Source of the DNA: a virus
DNA: 27,606 nt
Reading direction: 5' to 3' (one strand)
Virus record (IMG/VR): IMGVR_UViG_3300042475_000733
Coordinates: 1 to 27,606 of that record
A program made the translations under genes and the position numbers. Below are positions 10,673 through 23,012 of this stretch, piece by piece (the stretch's first letter is position 1; each line of letters starts with the position of its first letter). A model generated the notes under the pieces. That model ran no database searches, had not been told where the DNA came from, and saw only the letters and a list, made by a program, of their open reading frames with translations.

Positions 10673-11167
10673 ATGAACAACAAACTGACAAACGAAAGAC
10701 GAATCGAACTTAGAACTATTGATAAAACAGTAGATGAACTTATAGGTAAGGAACACTTATACGGATTAACTTATGAGCCAAACAATAGCGAAAGCCAAGA
10801 AGTTGATAGTATTATATCTAGCGTATTAAATACATTATCAGAAAAAGAACAAGAAATAATAAGGAGAAGATTCTTCCTTAGTGAGACGCTTGCGACTATC
10901 GCAAAGGCTATGGGCGTAGGAAGTGAAAGAATAAGACAAGTTGAAGCAAGAGCATTAAGGAAGTTGCGCCATCCAGACCGCATAAGAAAGTTAAATGAAT
11001 TAGCTGGTTTATTTGGGCTGTCTATTGGTGATGATGATGTGGATTATAAAAAGAATATGGAGAGGAACAGGGATGAAATTACAGTGAATAAAGAACGCTT
11101 AAAATACGAAGATTGGATTAAGGAGATAGTAAGTAATGAACCATTAAGATTACTGTTCCATGCTTAA
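10673..11167 (+). CDS. Sigma-70 region 4-only protein (phage transcription factor)
   Basis: This 164-residue protein carries a textbook sigma-70 region 4 at residues about 52-101. Region 4.1 contains LSEKEQEIIRRRFF and region 4.2 is a helix-turn-helix ending SERIRQVEARALRKLRHP, close to the end of bacterial RpoD. In sigma factors this part contacts the -35 element and the RNA polymerase beta-flap. Region 2, needed for -10 recognition and melting, is absent: the first 50 residues are short and charged. A charged C-terminal extension of about 55 residues follows region 4. It could redirect host polymerase, act with another sigma, or compete for the beta-flap. It lies 7 bases after the small terminase and overlaps the large terminase by 8 bases. 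Its arginine codons are 13 AGA/AGG of 17, unlike the terminase. Confidence 0.85.
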   Translation: MNNKLTNERRIELRTIDKTVDELIGKEHLYGLTYEPNNSESQEVDSIISSVLNTLSEKEQEIIRRRFFLSETLATIAKAMGVGSERIRQVEARALRKLRHPDRIRKLNELAGLFGLSIGDDDVDYKKNMERNRDEITVNKERLKYEDWIKEIVSNEPLRLLFHA

Positions 11168-12764: not shown

Positions 12765-13013
12765 ATGAAAAAAGAAATTAAAAAGAGTATTGAAAAGGCT
12801 AAACTTATCGAGGAACAAATTGACGAGGCAGTAGATGTGTACGCCATTGGCGTATGTCCTAACCCAGTTTGGATGCGTGGCATGACAAGGGATTCAGCTA
12901 AGTGTGCTATCCAAGTTCCAAAGGCTAGTATGCGTAACTCGTTAATCGGTAAATGGATGAAAGCGACTAGGATTGACGGCGAGGAAGAAAACCATTACAA
13001 GTTCCTAGCATGA
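12765..13013 (+). CDS. Small protein between terminase and portal (82 aa)
   Basis: An 82-residue basic protein. A Lys/Glu-rich helix (KKEIKKSIEKAKLIEEQ) is followed by a small domain with IGVCPNPVWMRG and a C-terminal LIGKWMKATRID strand. The pattern C-P-N-P followed by a later L-(I/V)-G-K is shared by small phage proteins near terminase or portal genes whose function is not known to me. It begins 3 bases after the large terminase and its stop overlaps the portal start (ATGA at 13010-13013), so it is likely translated with the portal. A GGA about 10 bases upstream is only a weak ribosome-binding signal. No enzymatic motif is seen. Confidence 0.65.
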   Translation: MKKEIKKSIEKAKLIEEQIDEAVDVYAIGVCPNPVWMRGMTRDSAKCAIQVPKASMRNSLIGKWMKATRIDGEEENHYKFLA

Positions 13014-15067
13014 GTTACCAAGAAGACGCTGATGAAGCAACAGTCTATACCGATGGCGAGCCTAATATCTCGATCCTACAAAACGTATATGACAGAGCAA
13101 AGCTAGACCAAGAGTGGTATATTGAATCTTGTGAACGTGCGTATAATGACCGCCGCAACATCTGGCCTGGCAAAGGTGACGATCTAAGGAAACATGGTTC
13201 TAATGCTTTCCCTTGGGAGGGAGCTTCCGACATGGAGGTTAATATCATTGGTGAGCGTATTGATACTTACGTGGCATTGCTATCACAGGCACTAGACCGT
13301 AGTAATATCAAAGCTTTTCCTACATCCCATGCTTCCGTAGCTAAGGCTTCTGTAACATCGCTATTCCTTAAATGGATGTGCAAGAGTTACATCCCTGACT
13401 TTAAACGGCAGATGGAGCTAGGTGCTAACCACCTGCTTGAGAAAGGTATCATGGTATCCTACGTTGGTTGGAAACGTGAGAAGCGTACGTTCTTGCAGAC
13501 GGTTACTCTTGAAGAACTACAAGGACAAATGCCAGAACTTGTTGAAGCTATTTTAGGCGAGAATACCCAAGAAGCCGAGGACTTTATCGCCAATGCCTAC
13601 CCAGACATGAAACGTTCTAGGGTTCGTAAGGCAATTAAAGACCTACGCTTTAAAGGTGTAGCCGAAGTGAGTATCCCACGTATATCCGTTGACTGCCCGA
13701 TTGTGCATAGCTGTGAGCCAGATGGTGAGATTATCTTTCCTTCCTACGTTACCGATCCACAACGCGCACCATACGTTTTCTGGAGAACATTTTACACTGC
13801 CCAAGAGCTTGAGAAAAAAGTAGCTACCGAAGGCTGGGACAGGAAATGGGTTGATAACGCAATTGAAAACCTACGTGGCGTTGATTCCAATGAAATGGAT
13901 ACAGCTAGTGACCGTGGCAAACAAAACGATCTAAGTGACGATAACGACCTTATTCTAGTTGTATATGCTTACCAGCGTTTGATTGACGAGGAAGATGGCA
14001 GCGAAGGTATTTATTGCACCGCTTTTCATCCAACCACAGAAGGATTTGCCAAGCATGAATTGCTTAACGGCTACGATGATTATCCCTTCATTGTGACTAG
14101 GCTGAATGATAACCAAAAACGTATGTATGAAACGACATCGTTTGCTGACATTCTACGTGGCCCGCAATACCAAGTTAAGACAGAACGTGATAGTCGTATT
14201 GACCGTGCGAGCTTGGCAACATTGCCACCGCTCCTGCATCCTGCTGGGCATCCACCAAAAGATTGGGGGCCTGGCAGACGTATCCCGTATCGCCGTATGG
14301 GTGAAGTTGCTTTTGCTCCGATTCCACAGTTTGATCCTGGCAGTGAGCGTATCGAAGCCCAGATGATTAGCCAAGCTGACAAAGCTGTTGGTCTGGACAT
14401 GGAGAACCCGTTAGCTTCTGTAAGGCAGCAATTCATCGTTAATAAGTTCCTTGACCACGTTAAAGATATTCTTTCGTTGTCGTTCAAGTTGTTCCAACGC
14501 ATGGGGCAAGATGAAGTATTCTTCCAAGTTACAGGTAGTCCAGAAAACCAAGTGATGACTAAGGGTGATGCTGATGATAACTTTAGCATCATGGTGACGT
14601 TTGACTCACGCGAGACAGATCCAAACACCATTGAGACGCAGATGAAGAACATGGCTACATTGATGCAGATCGACCGTAATGGACGTATTGACGTTAATAA
14701 ACTGCTTGAGCTTCTCACGGCACAGATTAACCCATTTATGGCAGACTATATCTTGCAGCCACAACAAGAGGCACAAGACAAGATGCTTAAAGATGTATCG
14801 GACGACCTTGCTAAAATCTATGCAGGTATCGAAATGCCAGCACGTCCGAACGGTGCAGACTTTGCAATGCAGCTTGTCCAATCATACGCGCAACAACCAG
14901 ACATTGCCCAACGCTTACAACAAGACGAGACGTTTGCGGCACGTATCCAGAAATACGCAGGTCAGTATCAGATGATGATAATGCAAGCACAGAACGCTGT
15001 GACGGGACGTATCGGAACGCAGGAAGCTAATATGGGTGGAGTATCTACCCAGAACATGGGAGAATAA
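13010..15067 (+). CDS. Portal protein (head-to-tail connector)
   Basis: A 685-residue protein that matches podovirus-type portals in length, position and pattern. It has an N-terminal helical segment (YNDRRNIWPGKGDDLRKHG), then FPWEGASD (67-74) and NIIGERIDTYVALLSQAL, followed by a large mixed core. The core includes YDDYPFIVTRLND and the long helix before KAVGLDMENPLASVRQQF. A C-terminal Gln-rich helical part (after about residue 585) probably forms the barrel or crown. Portals make a dodecameric ring at one capsid vertex through which terminase pumps DNA. It directly follows the large terminase by one small gene and overlaps that gene by 4 bases. Arginine codons are mainly CGT and CGC, as in the terminase. 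Confidence 0.88.
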   Translation: MSYQEDADEATVYTDGEPNISILQNVYDRAKLDQEWYIESCERAYNDRRNIWPGKGDDLRKHGSNAFPWEGASDMEVNIIGERIDTYVALLSQALDRSNIKAFPTSHASVAKASVTSLFLKWMCKSYIPDFKRQMELGANHLLEKGIMVSYVGWKREKRTFLQTVTLEELQGQMPELVEAILGENTQEAEDFIANAYPDMKRSRVRKAIKDLRFKGVAEVSIPRISVDCPIVHSCEPDGEIIFPSYVTDPQRAPYVFWRTFYTAQELEKKVATEGWDRKWVDNAIENLRGVDSNEMDTASDRGKQNDLSDDNDLILVVYAYQRLIDEEDGSEGIYCTAFHPTTEGFAKHELLNGYDDYPFIVTRLNDNQKRMYETTSFADILRGPQYQVKTERDSRIDRASLATLPPLLHPAGHPPKDWGPGRRIPYRRMGEVAFAPIPQFDPGSERIEAQMISQADKAVGLDMENPLASVRQQFIVNKFLDHVKDILSLSFKLFQRMGQDEVFFQVTGSPENQVMTKGDADDNFSIMVTFDSRETDPNTIETQMKNMATLMQIDRNGRIDVNKLLELLTAQINPFMADYILQPQQEAQDKMLKDVSDDLAKIYAGIEMPARPNGADFAMQLVQSYAQQPDIAQRLQQDETFAARIQKYAGQYQMMIMQAQNAVTGRIGTQEANMGGVSTQNMGE

Positions 15068-15069
15068 TT

Positions 15070-15672
15070 ATGCCAATGTTCTCACCATTAAAAGCGTTTG
15101 GACAGCCTAGTGCTATGGATCTTTATGGAGTTAAACCTTTAACTTCTTATGGTGGTTATCCTGTTATCTCTGCTAAAAGTATGCAGCTTGAAGATTTTTA
15201 CAATAAAGATGGTAAGGAAGTAGCAGGAATGGCATGGGGAGGAACTAAAAATCCTATTGGTCAAGGACGAGGCGAGAAGCCGTCTATTATTCCAAACCAA
15301 AACTATTTTAAGGGAGATCCTCGTGGATATAACGCCTTGGTTAAGCTAGAGGCATCTCGCCATTGGATGAGTGAAAACGATTACAATCCAAAATTTAATA
15401 TAACTCCCCAAATGCAAAAATGGAGAGAAAAAAACTTTAAAAATGCTGGTTCAGCGGGGGAAGCTTATTTAAATGACGACAACGCTTTTAGACAAACTGT
15501 TATTTCAAGATTTATAGGAGGAGATCCAAACGTCCCAGATTTTACCGATGAGCTTAAAAATGAAATAAAAAAAGTTGAAACAAAGCTTGTAGATCAAGAA
15601 AATAAGAGCAAGCCAAACACATCAGAAATGATAATGAACGCAGTAAAACTTGCTACTGCATACAGAAAATAA
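15070..15672 (+). CDS. Hypothetical protein after the portal (200 aa)
   Basis: A 200-residue soluble protein beginning 2 bases after the portal stop. The N-terminal half is Gly, Pro and aromatic-rich (MPMFSPLKAFGQPSAMDLYG, MAWGGTKNPIGQGRGEKPSI). The middle has an aromatic and basic segment (LEASRHWMSENDYNPKF), and the C-terminus is a Lys/Glu helix. A-rich DNA and AGA arginine codons set it apart from the portal. GGGAG about 9 bases before the ATG may be a real ribosome-binding site, but it also encodes the portal C-terminus. Possible roles are a minor head or packaging protein. I do not recognise its family and no catalytic motif stands out. Confidence 0.65.
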   Translation: MPMFSPLKAFGQPSAMDLYGVKPLTSYGGYPVISAKSMQLEDFYNKDGKEVAGMAWGGTKNPIGQGRGEKPSIIPNQNYFKGDPRGYNALVKLEASRHWMSENDYNPKFNITPQMQKWREKNFKNAGSAGEAYLNDDNAFRQTVISRFIGGDPNVPDFTDELKNEIKKVETKLVDQENKSKPNTSEMIMNAVKLATAYRK

Positions 15673-15686
15673 ATAAAAATAATAAT

Positions 15687-15833
15687 ATGAAACAAGGACT
15701 GTATAGTAATATCAATGCTAAACGCAAACGTATCGCAGCAGGTAGCGGCGAGAAGATGAACAAGGTTGGGAGCAAAAAAGCACCGACTGCAAAAGACTTC
15801 CGCGACTCAGCTAAGACTGCCAAAAAGAAATGA
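15687..15833 (+). CDS. Tiny lysine-rich basic protein (48 aa)
   Basis: A 48-residue protein beginning MKQGLYSNINAKRKRIAAGS and ending in KTAKKK. I count 12 Lys and 3 Arg against 3 acidic residues. The opening K-Q-G-L-Y-x-N-I-x-A-K-R-K and the later K-K-A-P-T-A-K-D-F resemble small basic proteins that recur near portal and capsid genes of podoviruses. It starts after an A/T-only leader, and its stop overlaps the next gene by 4 bases (ATGA at 15830-15833). A nucleic-acid-binding or packaging-associated role is an inference from charge and position. Confidence 0.75.
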   Translation: MKQGLYSNINAKRKRIAAGSGEKMNKVGSKKAPTAKDFRDSAKTAKKK

Positions 15834-16072
15834 AGAAGCGATTTAAGAAGGTAGTTACCAACCCAGAAACGGGAAGGAAGAACACAATTCGCTATGGCTT
15901 GGCAGGAATGGCAAGTGATGGCAAAGACCGCATTAGACCTTCTACCAAAAAAGCTGATGCGTACTGCGCTCGTAGTGCTAAGATCAAGGGTGATTGGAGA
16001 GACGATCCTAATAGCCCAAACAATCTTAGCCGTAAAAAATGGAAGTGCAAAGGTAGCAAATCAACTAAATGA
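15830..16072 (+). CDS. Small basic phage protein with YCARS...LSRKKWKC signature (80 aa)
   Basis: An 80-residue basic protein, 16 Lys and 8 Arg by my count. It contains a distinctive run, residues about 42-76: ADAYCARSAKIKGDW, then DDPNSPNNLSRKKWKCKGSK. I recall the same signature (D-x-Y-C-A-R-S, then D-P-N-S-P-x-x-L-S-R-K-K-W-x-C) in many small phage proteins of unknown function near structural genes. The two cysteines could pair or bind metal. The start overlaps the stop of the 48-residue gene (ATGA), and the following 42-residue gene starts 4 bases downstream, so the three small basic genes form one coupled unit. No function is established to my knowledge. Confidence 0.82.
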   Translation: MKKRFKKVVTNPETGRKNTIRYGLAGMASDGKDRIRPSTKKADAYCARSAKIKGDWRDDPNSPNNLSRKKWKCKGSKSTK

Positions 16073-16076
16073 ATCT

Positions 16077-16205
16077 ATGAAAAACAAAAAAAATAGCTGC
16101 GAAAACGAAAGCAAAGAATACGGAAAAGGCAAAAAAGGTAAGGGCTATGTCGAGATTGAAATCAAGATGGGTAGGATGCCTAAAAAGAAAGCTAAACGTA
16201 AATAA
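16077..16205 (+). CDS. Tiny lysine-rich protein (42 aa)
   Basis: A 42-residue protein from the ATG at 16077, 4 bases after the preceding stop. I count 14 Lys and 2 Arg against 5 Glu. The centre is Gly/Lys repetitive (YGKGKKGKGYVEIEIKMGRM) and the end is PKKKAKRK. The same frame is open upstream, but that part overlaps the preceding gene and shows no relation to it, so the short start is preferred. Third of a run of basic micro-proteins between portal and scaffold. A role in binding DNA or RNA is suggested only by charge. Confidence 0.5.
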   Translation: MKNKKNSCENESKEYGKGKKGKGYVEIEIKMGRMPKKKAKRK

Positions 16206-16226: not shown

Positions 16227-16427
16227 ATGATTCCAAAACCAACACTAGAACAATCCGTGCAAGGTTTGTCTGAGCGTGACGAATACAAAGTAATTGTGCA
16301 GTATATCAAAGACGAGCGTGACCGTTTCTTTAGCGATTTACGCCAAGCTGAGACTCCGCACGATGTAATGAAGATTGCTGGTTCGATAGCATCTATGGAT
16401 GAATTGCTAGGATTTCTTGACAAATAG
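16227..16427 (+). CDS. Small helical protein (66 aa)
   Basis: A 66-residue, probably all-helical protein (SERDEYKVIVQYIKDERDRF, then MKIAGSIASMDELLGFL). Such short proteins with a D-E-R-D-x-F-F helix are often found just upstream of scaffold and capsid genes in phages; I cannot name the family. It is the last gene before a strong intrinsic terminator about 65 bases downstream, so it ends the terminase-portal transcript. The leader is A/T-rich with no ribosome-binding site. A role in head assembly is possible from position only. Confidence 0.65.
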   Translation: MIPKPTLEQSVQGLSERDEYKVIVQYIKDERDRFFSDLRQAETPHDVMKIAGSIASMDELLGFLDK

Positions 16428-16638: not shown

Positions 16639-17667
16639 ATGAAAGCAAACCAAGACTCCATCGCTGGGGAGGAATCCAGTGTTAATGACAACCTTAGTAT
16701 GGAGGCCTTAATCAGCCAACTTACCCAAGGAGAACCACAAGAGGTAGAAGCTGAAGAAGCAGAAACTGAAGTAGAAGAAGAAGAGCAAGAAGAAGGGTTT
16801 GAAGAAACCGAAACTGAAGAGCTTTCTGATGATACTGAGGAAGAAGCAACCGAAGAAGAAACCGCTGACGAAATAGACCTACTTAGTCTTGAGCCAGAGC
16901 AATTCCAAGCATTAGCTAAAAAGCATAAGAGCCGCCTACTTGAGCGTGTCGGGGAACTGACAGCGAAAAACAAAGCACTCCAGGCACAAGCTGAAGAAGC
17001 TGGGATGAAGCAATCGAGCGTAAGGACTATACCGACAGAACAGAATCCATTTGGACAACTTAAAACCGCTGAGGAAATCAAAGCTAAGTTTGAAGCGTTT
17101 GAATCGACTTTGGAAACTACGGATAGGCTACTTGAGGAATATGATGATTACAGCAACGATGATATTATTGAGGTTGGCGATCAACAGTTCACCAAGAAGC
17201 AGGTCAAACTAGCCAATAGAAACGCAAGGGATGCGGTAGCTAAATACTTACCAGCCCAAGCAGCTCACCTGCAAACTCTGCAAAACTACGTTGTAGCAAA
17301 CCAGCAATGGCAGGACATGGCGAAACAAGAAGTGCCTGAGATTTCTGACGAAAAAACGGAAATCGGTAAAGCATACAGTCAGCTTGTGAATGATCCTTTA
17401 GTAATTGAACTGAAAGAGAAGCTCCCACAACTAGGGGTTCAGATAGAATACTTACTCGCTCACGCCGCAAGGTCTAAGTTTGGAAGTGCCAAGAAAGTAG
17501 TGCAAGGCGCAGGACAGAAGTTGAAGGTGAAACCACCCGCTTCCCCTGTTGGAGCTGGAGCATCACGGCAAGGGCAGGGACAAACCAGCAAATATGCTGA
17601 TGCCATGAAGCGTTTTGAAAGTAGTGGTTCTGCTGAAGATTGGGTTGCTGCACAAAAATATAAATAA
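16639..17667 (+). CDS. Capsid scaffolding protein
   Basis: A 342-residue protein directly upstream of the major capsid gene. Residues about 33-80 are extremely acidic (EVEAEEAETEVEEEEQEEGF). A central helical region contains HKSRLLERVGELTAKNKALQ and a later LETTDRLLEEYDDYS. The C-terminus is basic (KVVQGAGQKLKVKPPASP) and ends in a short helix (DAMKRFESSGSAEDWVAAQK). An acidic N-terminus, helical rod and basic C-terminal tail that touches the capsid protein are typical of phage scaffolds, which direct prohead assembly and then leave. It starts after an A/T-rich leader (ACAAAAT) without a Shine-Dalgarno sequence and lies 19 bases before the capsid gene. Confidence 0.82.
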   Translation: MKANQDSIAGEESSVNDNLSMEALISQLTQGEPQEVEAEEAETEVEEEEQEEGFEETETEELSDDTEEEATEEETADEIDLLSLEPEQFQALAKKHKSRLLERVGELTAKNKALQAQAEEAGMKQSSVRTIPTEQNPFGQLKTAEEIKAKFEAFESTLETTDRLLEEYDDYSNDDIIEVGDQQFTKKQVKLANRNARDAVAKYLPAQAAHLQTLQNYVVANQQWQDMAKQEVPEISDEKTEIGKAYSQLVNDPLVIELKEKLPQLGVQIEYLLAHAARSKFGSAKKVVQGAGQKLKVKPPASPVGAGASRQGQGQTSKYADAMKRFESSGSAEDWVAAQKYK

Positions 17668-17686: not shown

Positions 17687-18673
17687 ATGCCTATTTCAAA
17701 TACATATAGCCCTAGTGTTCCTAGCACTAGTTCATCCGTTGGATCAAACAAAGGTAACCGCGAAGATCTTTCTTCGATGTTGACCATGCTTGAGCCAGAA
17801 CAAACCCCTATCACTTCCCTTTGCGCTAAAGCAAAAGCTAATGGAGTTCTCCATGAGTGGGTAATTGATGGTCTTGAAGCTCCTAACGCAGATGGTATTG
17901 GTGAGACTTCCGATGTTACTTCGTTCAGCAACAAGTTTGCTTCGCGTGGTCGCCTTGGTAACTACACCCAAATCTTCCGTAAGGATTACCTTGTTTCCGA
18001 CTTGCAGAACGCAAGCGCAAGCGTTGGCCCAGCAGACGTTGCCCAAGCAAAAGCTAAAGCATTGCGTGAAATCAAACGCGACATCGAGTTAGCAGTTGCT
18101 TCCAACAATGACCGCCAAGCTGAAGATGGCACGAATCCTTACAAGCTCCGTGGACTCGGTGATTGGCTTGATTCCGCTGGCCCATCTGATGTGCCTGCTG
18201 CTTATCGCACGCCGTCTGCTTCTATCCTTGGCGCAACCGTAACCGAAGCTACCCTTAACAACTTGCTTGGAAGTATCTTCTCCGAGACTGGTGAAATGGG
18301 TAATCTTACGCTTGTTGCTAACGTAGCACTTCGTAAAGTTATCGCTAACTTTACCCGTGCTGAAGGAACGACCACCGCTAAAGCATACAACGTAAACGAA
18401 GATGCTGTGTCACGTAGAATCACCCTTAGCGTATCGCTCTTCGATACTGACTTCGGTGTTATCAAACTTGTAAACGGCAACCCAGCTTGTATGCCAACCG
18501 CAACCACCAATGTTGGTTACGTCCTTGATCCTAAGTATCTTGGTATTGGTACCTTGCTTCCACTTGAGTCTGTTGTCCTTGAGAACCAAGGTGCAGGTGA
18601 GCGTGGATACGTCAAAACGGCTTGCACCCTTGTTTGCAAATCGCCACAAGCACACGGTAAAATTGCTTACTAA
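17687..18673 (+). CDS. Major capsid protein (SU10-like, HK97 fold)
   Basis: A 328-residue protein with the signature of the SU10 major capsid family (DUF5309): REDLSSMLTMLEPEQTPITS (25-44), a VLHEW motif (54-58), and RLGNYTQIFRKDYLVSD (89-105) followed by a helix of the AKALREIKRDIELAVA kind. These correspond to the N-arm, the E-loop and the spine helix of the HK97 fold. Several hundred copies build the icosahedral shell. Position after the scaffold and before a decoration-type protein supports the call. Codons are of the CGT/CGC-rich, well-expressed type. There is no Shine-Dalgarno sequence even here (leader CACCTAATAAT), which is striking for the most abundant virion protein. Confidence 0.92.
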   Translation: MPISNTYSPSVPSTSSSVGSNKGNREDLSSMLTMLEPEQTPITSLCAKAKANGVLHEWVIDGLEAPNADGIGETSDVTSFSNKFASRGRLGNYTQIFRKDYLVSDLQNASASVGPADVAQAKAKALREIKRDIELAVASNNDRQAEDGTNPYKLRGLGDWLDSAGPSDVPAAYRTPSASILGATVTEATLNNLLGSIFSETGEMGNLTLVANVALRKVIANFTRAEGTTTAKAYNVNEDAVSRRITLSVSLFDTDFGVIKLVNGNPACMPTATTNVGYVLDPKYLGIGTLLPLESVVLENQGAGERGYVKTACTLVCKSPQAHGKIAY

Positions 18674-22343: not shown

Positions 22344-22461
22344 AGGTATCGAGTATAAGTTTGCTGAAGGAACTTTGATTGGAAGAGGGCAACGCTTTCA
22401 TAACGATTACTCTTACCGCCGTGCTGTGATTATCGGAGAGAAAGGAAACCCAACTAAATGA
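22213..22461 (+). CDS. Lipoprotein, probable outer-membrane spanin subunit
   Basis: An 82-residue protein with a lipoprotein signal peptide: MKMKLMPLLLTVLLLQSC, with lipobox L-Q-S-C and the lipidated Cys at about 18. The mature part is 65 residues (SKDSLQGLPVNESALYDPET and onward). It starts within the preceding gene in a different frame, sharing 131 bases, as Rz1 starts inside Rz in lambda. An o-spanin of this kind would pair with the coiled-coil partner to fuse inner and outer membranes at lysis. Its stop overlaps the amidase start (ATGATAG). A lipoprotein argues for a Gram-negative host. Confidence 0.65.
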   Translation: MKMKLMPLLLTVLLLQSCVSKDSLQGLPVNESALYDPETIHLLEGIEYKFAEGTLIGRGQRFHNDYSYRRAVIIGEKGNPTK

Positions 22462-23012
22462 TAGCAATTTGCATAGGACACAGCAGGAAGATCAGCGGCA
22501 GATATGACGGCGGTGCTTACTCGGAGCATCTAAAGATTAGTGAGCGCGACTTTAATTTAAAGGTCGCAACTAAGTTATCCGCAGAGCTAACCCGCAAAGG
22601 CATCCCATCAAAGATATTTGACCACTACGACGGCAATGGTTACGGCTATGCCATGTCAGATATTGCTGACAAAGTTAAGGCGGCACAAGCTACCATGGCT
22701 ATCGAGCTGCACTTCAACTCAGCTACCCCTAGTGCTACTGGGCATGAATGGCTTTACTGGCATAGCTCCGTTAAAGGTAAGGCTATCGCTGAGAAGTTTA
22801 ACGATTGCTTTAGTAAAAACTTCCCGAACATCAAATCTAGGGGATTGAAGCCGATTAAGAAAACTGACCGTGGTGGCAAGTTCCTTGAGCTTACCCATTG
22901 CCCAGCTATTATCGTCGAGCCATTCTTCGGTAGCAATGAGGGCGACTGCAAGCAAGTGAACACCGATAACATTGCCGAAACCTACGCTAAAGCACTAGCC
23001 TCGCTGCAATAA
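22458..23012 (+). CDS. Endolysin: N-acetylmuramoyl-L-alanine amidase (Amidase_3 type)
   Basis: A 184-residue single-domain amidase. Zinc-site residues can be read at H8 (AICIGHSRK), a glutamate in the YSEHLKISER segment (E23 or E29) and H85 (AIELHFNS), with the catalytic E154 in IIVEPFFGSN. This is the Amidase_3 order H...E...H...E. It cuts the bond between N-acetylmuramic acid and L-alanine in peptidoglycan. There is no signal peptide, so export should depend on the holin. No separate wall-binding domain is present, as is usual for phages of Gram-negative hosts. It overlaps the lipoprotein gene by 4 bases and ends immediately before the next start. Confidence 0.88.
   Translation: MIAICIGHSRKISGRYDGGAYSEHLKISERDFNLKVATKLSAELTRKGIPSKIFDHYDGNGYGYAMSDIADKVKAAQATMAIELHFNSATPSATGHEWLYWHSSVKGKAIAEKFNDCFSKNFPNIKSRGLKPIKKTDRGGKFLELTHCPAIIVEPFFGSNEGDCKQVNTDNIAETYAKALASLQ

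Follow-up and report, generated by a model that had tools for sequence, protein, structure and literature searches.

We found that two adjacent genes for small basic proteins, here called A and C, recur as a pair, either one coming first, among the head or packaging genes of several phage groups that are not related to one another. In the window, that is the whole stretch of 27,606 nucleotides analysed here, they stand in a run of three with another basic gene, D (Table 1). The run of three is lineage-specific and the recurring unit is the A+C pair. Judging from sequence comparisons, A and C may well be small folded virion modules that would be packaged with the genome, bound to DNA or to the inside of the head, a reading that we hold tentatively.

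Table 1. Genes and junctions around A, C and D in the window
Feature	Positions	Strand	Description
Portal protein	13010..15067	+	24% identical to annotated portals, E 8e-23
Gene upstream of A	15070..15672	+	200 aa, no assigned function; matched by strict profile in 16 loci, the window among them
Gene A (P0001)	15687..15833	+	48 aa, basic, phrog_16028 type
ATGA overlap coupling A and C	15830..15833	+	
Gene C (P0002)	15830..16072	+	80 aa, basic; DUF6321-related C-terminal core
4-base gap, C to D	16073..16076	+	
Gene D	16077..16205	+	42 aa, basic; conserved GYVEIEIKM; this phage lineage only
Gene downstream of D	16227..16427	+	66 aa, no assigned function; matched by strict profile in 38 loci, the window among them
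Probable scaffold	16639..17667	+	phrog_3927 E 0.011 (weak), position, composition
Major capsid protein, SU10_MCP family	17687..18673	+	Pfam PF17236 E 1.8e-51; phrog_1328 E 9.1e-52

The original prediction described three coupled lysine-rich micro-genes between portal and scaffold, and its open reading frames, ATGA overlap, 4-base gap and Lys+Arg counts are all as claimed. Counted from the translations, A, C and D have 15, 24 and 16 Lys+Arg and 3, 7 and 5 acidic residues, with calculated pI values of 10.7, 10.5 and 10.1, respectively. The placement in a head and packaging block is upheld by homology for the portal, the large terminase (28%, E 4e-12) and the SU10_MCP capsid protein. As to the flanks, the portal label stands and the scaffold label comes from a weak profile match, place and composition. 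The window also encodes a protein with sigma-70 region 4 (Pfam Sigma70_r4, E 2.4e-15; 10673-11167, +), whose gene immediately precedes that of the large terminase and which may regulate late genes, and an Amidase_3 lysis enzyme (22458-23012, +; E 7.5e-21).

A, C and D are all genuine genes and not chance open reading frames. Purifying selection is strong on both A and C, with dN of 0.009–0.19 and dS of 0.49 to saturation for A, and dN of 0.07–0.26 and dS of 0.77 to saturation for C (six codon comparisons each). C is no chance frame because its dN is far below its dS, and A on the same ground, together with a full-length profile match and relatives in many phage records. D is no chance frame because its relatives in 16 other loci (17 with the window) keep the same start and the GYVEIEIKM core. 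These all belong to the window's own lineage, and wider relatives were not found beyond it among the loci compared.

Gene A matches phrog_16028 over its full length (residues 1-48 on profile positions 2-49 of 50, E 1.4e-22) and follows the pattern GLYxNIxAKRxRIxxGSGEKM..G..AP.....SAKTAKKK. Its relatives occur in 127 of 50,697 phage records, chiefly of Synechococcus, Prochlorococcus, Pelagibacter and Roseobacter phages, and a scan of virus contigs confirmed at least 590 of them, the best 80 of which are analysed below.

Some A genes are misannotated as the ribonucleotide reductase alpha subunit, namely those of CRP-810 (L167 3995-4153), WH11-B (L168 4995-5144) and S-B28 (L178 2292-2570). In Syn1, the ribonucleotide reductase label is on a gene next to the A-bearing one, and this neighbour has a T4-GC number in common with the A-bearing P-HM2_164; this common number is a possible source of the wrong name. 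In CRP-5, another tiny Lys-rich protein (PAGYHYMPDGKLMKGSKHPTK...) is encoded directly 3′ of A (L163 5153-5278).

Genes of the P0002 type were found in 12 phage records and in 149 confirmed stretches of virus contigs; the analyses below use the best 80 of these stretches. C has a predicted N-terminal RYG/RFGQ hairpin and a C-terminal YCARS..W.C core. As originally noted, the YCARS...WKC signature recurs widely across phages with no known function. When separate sequence sets were aligned profile to profile by hhalign, the core matched DUF6321 (PF19846) over 36 columns with a probability of 96.8% and E 2.5e-10, and a reversed control gave 0.2%; an iterated DUF6321-type profile absorbs the C family. 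The DUF6321 Pfam model itself matches 5 of 44 C-family members (best 7.5e-12), and P0002 gave no match to it at E up to 1, short of the curated cut-off, so we call C a remote relative of DUF6321 and not a member. In the profile-profile comparison, the N-terminal half resembles a third set, the RFGQ...KARH proteins found in CRP-5 and CRP-810, with a value of only 54%.

The C module also ends open frames of 619-780 aa (L153 3378-5234, L154 3363-5237 and L097 88-2427), two of the three being on contigs of 184-198 kb, and starts a frame of at least 1368 aa (L114 5001-9104); none of these long frames has a clear family match. In CRP-7 (L165 3199-3586), stand-alone small proteins between C and the large terminase match modules of S-SCSM1 ORF29, and one of them comes near the DUF5872 cut-off (27.3 vs 27.5 bits).

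The linkage of A and C is close. Among the best 80 of at least 590 A-seeded virus loci, chosen by A alone and counted for all C-type genes, 71 hold a C-type gene. It lies no more than 300 bases from A in 61 of them, within 1 kb in a further 7 and farther off in 3; the stretch examined holds none in the other 9. In these same 80 loci, the C-type gene is on the same strand in 71 of 71 and occurs in both orders, and its density around A is 0.81 per kb at 0-500 bases, 0.053 at 0.5-1 kb and 0-0.017 at 1-5 kb. With strict profiles, 36 of the 80 C-seeded loci (best 80 of 149) hold A, always upstream and on the same strand, and 15 of the 80 A-seeded loci (best 80 of at least 590) hold C. Co-occurrence of the three genes had been proposed as a check, and lack of a conserved order in relatives as a refutation; the neighbourhood proves conserved for A and C (paired in 71 of 80 loci) and not for D beyond its own lineage.

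Since the loci are related, they were also grouped into lineage clusters by their shared larger proteins at three thresholds. The strictest gave 27 clusters, 22 of them with A and 15 with adjacency; the looser thresholds merge clusters, leaving 8 A-bearing ones with 5 adjacent or 10 with 6. In bacterial genome records, a C-type gene accompanies A in 27 of 56 loci (within 300 bases in 21, in the same open frame in 2) and is absent from the stretch examined in the other 29.

Named phages with A next to or near a C-type gene are S-SBP1, P-SCSP1d, HTVC031P, WH11-B, CRP-5 and CRP-810, and in S-SBP1, HTVC031P, P-SCSP1d, WH11-B and CRP-810 the pair was found beside scaffold, capsid or tail-tube genes. 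Both modules are joined in one protein in locus L051 and in phrog_11180. The two modules also form a single protein in T4-like cyanophages, where ACG-2014e_98 and S-CAM7_133, for instance, are A...DUF6321 fusions encoded between TerS and TerL, an interval described as a gene-content hot-spot in the available part of an earlier study (PMC3037559). Phage C75C1, the nearest relative of the window by capsid, has its YCARS...WKC gene elsewhere and no A within the 16,957 bases examined.

AlphaFold2 predicts for A a helix at residues 5-17, a conserved loop and a helix at 35-45 (mean pLDDT 85), and for C a hairpin with two short helices (mean pLDDT 79). The predicted C fold is tentative because four of its five models score lower (62-76) than the best one. 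Foldseek searches of the PDB with both models returned nothing at E 0.001, and PDB sequence searches, run with the single sequences as well as with the A and C profiles, gave no credible match to a solved chain. Nor did any family annotated as DNA-binding match. Weak Pfam matches in this analysis, to SRP_SPB (0.023-0.051) and divDNAB (0.09-0.16), were under the cut-offs and are taken as chance.

The net charge is positive in 61 of 61 A members and 44 of 44 C members. However, plain neutralisation of DNA charge, one of the roles originally suggested, does not fit the constraint, as only 2 of 13 invariant residues of A and 2 of 9 of C are Lys or Arg. The invariant positions include Gly, Ser, Glu, Met, Pro, Tyr, Cys, Asn and Trp. 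Because they are mostly not Lys or Arg, shape or specific contacts would be what is conserved in A and C. Charge neutralisation is unlikely as the whole explanation, though the mean column conservation differs little between Lys/Arg and other residues (0.84 and 0.84 in A, 0.74 and 0.80 in C). A protamine-like neutraliser was rejected likewise, the constraint not falling mainly on basic residues.

Some cellular relatives of A are tied to DNA. In Ramlibacter pallidus HM2 (L239 1868-4138), A lies in frame and C-terminal to the ligase and primase-polymerase domains of an end-joining LigD as identified by Pfam, a single case whose LigD-A junction has an internal ATG. A is present in 10 of 399 genomes of the family of genome G001, several of which, like Variovorax sp. 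KK3, have a stand-alone A with a Lys/Arg/Ala-rich tail; the tail is Lys/Ala-rich in the cellular relatives L248, L255 and L256. The Variovorax A has ordinary chromosomal genes as neighbours. These relatives are the only hints, and indirect ones, that A may act on DNA.

The virion proteomes bear on relatives of the pair. We scanned the whole genomes of S-CREM2, S-SCSM1 and S-SZBM1 with profiles of A, C, the DUF6321 type, the DUF5872 type and one further module; the RFGQ...KARH profile was applied to just two of them, S-SCSM1 and S-SZBM1. In S-CREM2 there are two module carriers, gp137 and gp160, and the available part of its virion mass-spectrometry table includes both, with 4 and 7 unique peptides, respectively (PMC10665884). 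The sole carrier of S-SCSM1, ORF29, is labelled 'virion protein' in its record, which presumably marks detection, and the accessible text on this virion counts 45 detected proteins (PMC9602691). The sole carrier of S-SZBM1, gp192 (DUF6321), is absent from the list of 30 detected virion proteins as given in the available part of that report (PMC9146016).

Thus, larger DUF6321-/DUF5872-type proteins were detected in cyanophage virions in three of four cases. The chance of detecting at least three of four is 0.023 assuming equal detectability, in a small sample and with long proteins being easier to detect. S-SZBM1_139, detected in the virion, has the further module seen beside A, but this module was added afterwards and the protein is left out of the three of four. 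It may also be that the modules are not what puts the long multi-module proteins into the particle.

None of the four carriers contains A, so its presence in virions is a point that we infer. The available parts of the virion tables of S-CREM2, S-SCSM1 and S-SZBM1 hold no A-bearing or P0002-type polypeptide, and no virion protein list was found in the accessible portion of the P-SSP7 purification paper (PMC13002823). Absence from proteomes, originally proposed as a refutation, is a weak one because only 2 of the 15 tryptic pieces of A reach 7 residues. S-SCSM1 also encodes ORF93 (L180 41626-41835), a 69-aa basic protein labelled as a virion protein, which we take to resemble DUF3008.

As virion modules, A and C would be stand-alone versions of small cationic folded units, made late together with the portal, scaffold and capsid proteins. 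They would attach to DNA or to the head surface that faces it, be packaged with the genome and probably be ejected along with it. A would be a two-helix unit acting on DNA and C a hairpin-plus-helix unit with the invariant YCxRS...WxC core. The two would work together, which would explain their adjacency in either order or their fusion, and D might be a lineage-specific accessory of the same kind.

The next most likely reading, itself doubtful, is that A and C are cofactors that bind the acidic scaffold, the portal or the terminase in prohead assembly or DNA entry and are absent from the finished particle. Several lineages have them next to a scaffold, portal or terminase gene, the N-terminal half of the window scaffold is strongly acidic and gp192 is missing from the S-SZBM1 list as far as that source is available, all of which suits a cofactor. 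However, the neighbouring head gene varies by lineage among scaffold, capsid, tail tube and terminase, which leaves no single partner as a constant neighbour, and related modules are present in virion proteins. A virion-internal role, on the DNA or lining the head, appears the most likely.

A role for A and C as a small cement or lining on the lattice of the major capsid protein is improbable. Their head-block location and strong sequence constraint agree with such a capsid glue, but their profiles match no solved chain and the carriers differ in capsid family. Moreover, P-SCSP1u (H126) carries both genes, and no mention of extra or unknown proteins was found in the accessible text of its cryo-EM paper (PMC10575957). 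An action outside the particle, with A and C as injected or late-made effectors that target the nucleoid, ribosome or RNA of the host, is also quite improbable. Small basic proteins are able to bind RNA or the nucleoid and cellular A copies sit in an ordinary chromosomal context, but in several lineages A and C are inside head blocks and not among early genes. This location also speaks against a toxin or an early effector.

A broader extension of the virion-module reading is possible, if unlikely. A would be a DNA-acting micro-domain common to phage particles and bacterial chromosomal proteins, the latter being those with H1-like tails and the LigD fusion, and A, C/DUF6321, DUF5872-type and other units would form a mix-and-match kit. 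In aquatic phages the units would work singly, each as its own micro-protein, or strung together within one polypeptide, and their task would be to line or load the genome in the head and to bring cargo into the cell. DUF5872 and DUF5754 are listed among the genes of an algal giant virus in the available part of one report (PMC12085832).

The A and C families, to which no function has been assigned, are very common in phages infecting Synechococcus, Prochlorococcus, Pelagibacter and Roseobacter, all abundant bacteria of aquatic habitats. A literature search, with most subscription papers outside its reach, found no account of the A+C pair, no mention of DUF6321 or of the motifs, and nothing on function under the family names. 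The pairing, the fusion, the head or terminase location and the DNA-tied cellular relatives turn a 'hypothetical protein' into a testable proposal on what accompanies DNA in marine phage heads. As a small two-protein system, A and C can be made and tested in vitro.

Compared with known systems, A is a full-length match to phrog_16028, but that family has no recorded function and its label is silent on the partner gene. C shares with DUF6321, itself of unknown function, the Y/F-C-x-R-S/M ... W-x-C core, whereas the N-terminal half of P0002 resembles the RFGQ...KARH proteins (54%). The Kyanoviridae TerS-TerL interval proteins (phrog_11180 and phrog_727) have A and/or DUF6321 modules in one chain, but they are fused, longer and often with further modules, DUF5872-type and others. 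The internal virion proteins of T4 and T7 are small, made late and carried in the head; A and C would be like them in size and timing, with no sequence link found. The histone H1-like bacterial nucleoid proteins are a class with a long, low-complexity tail rich in Lys, Ala and Pro. Such a tail is present in some cellular A copies, whereas P0001 is without it and has instead a conserved core that looks folded.
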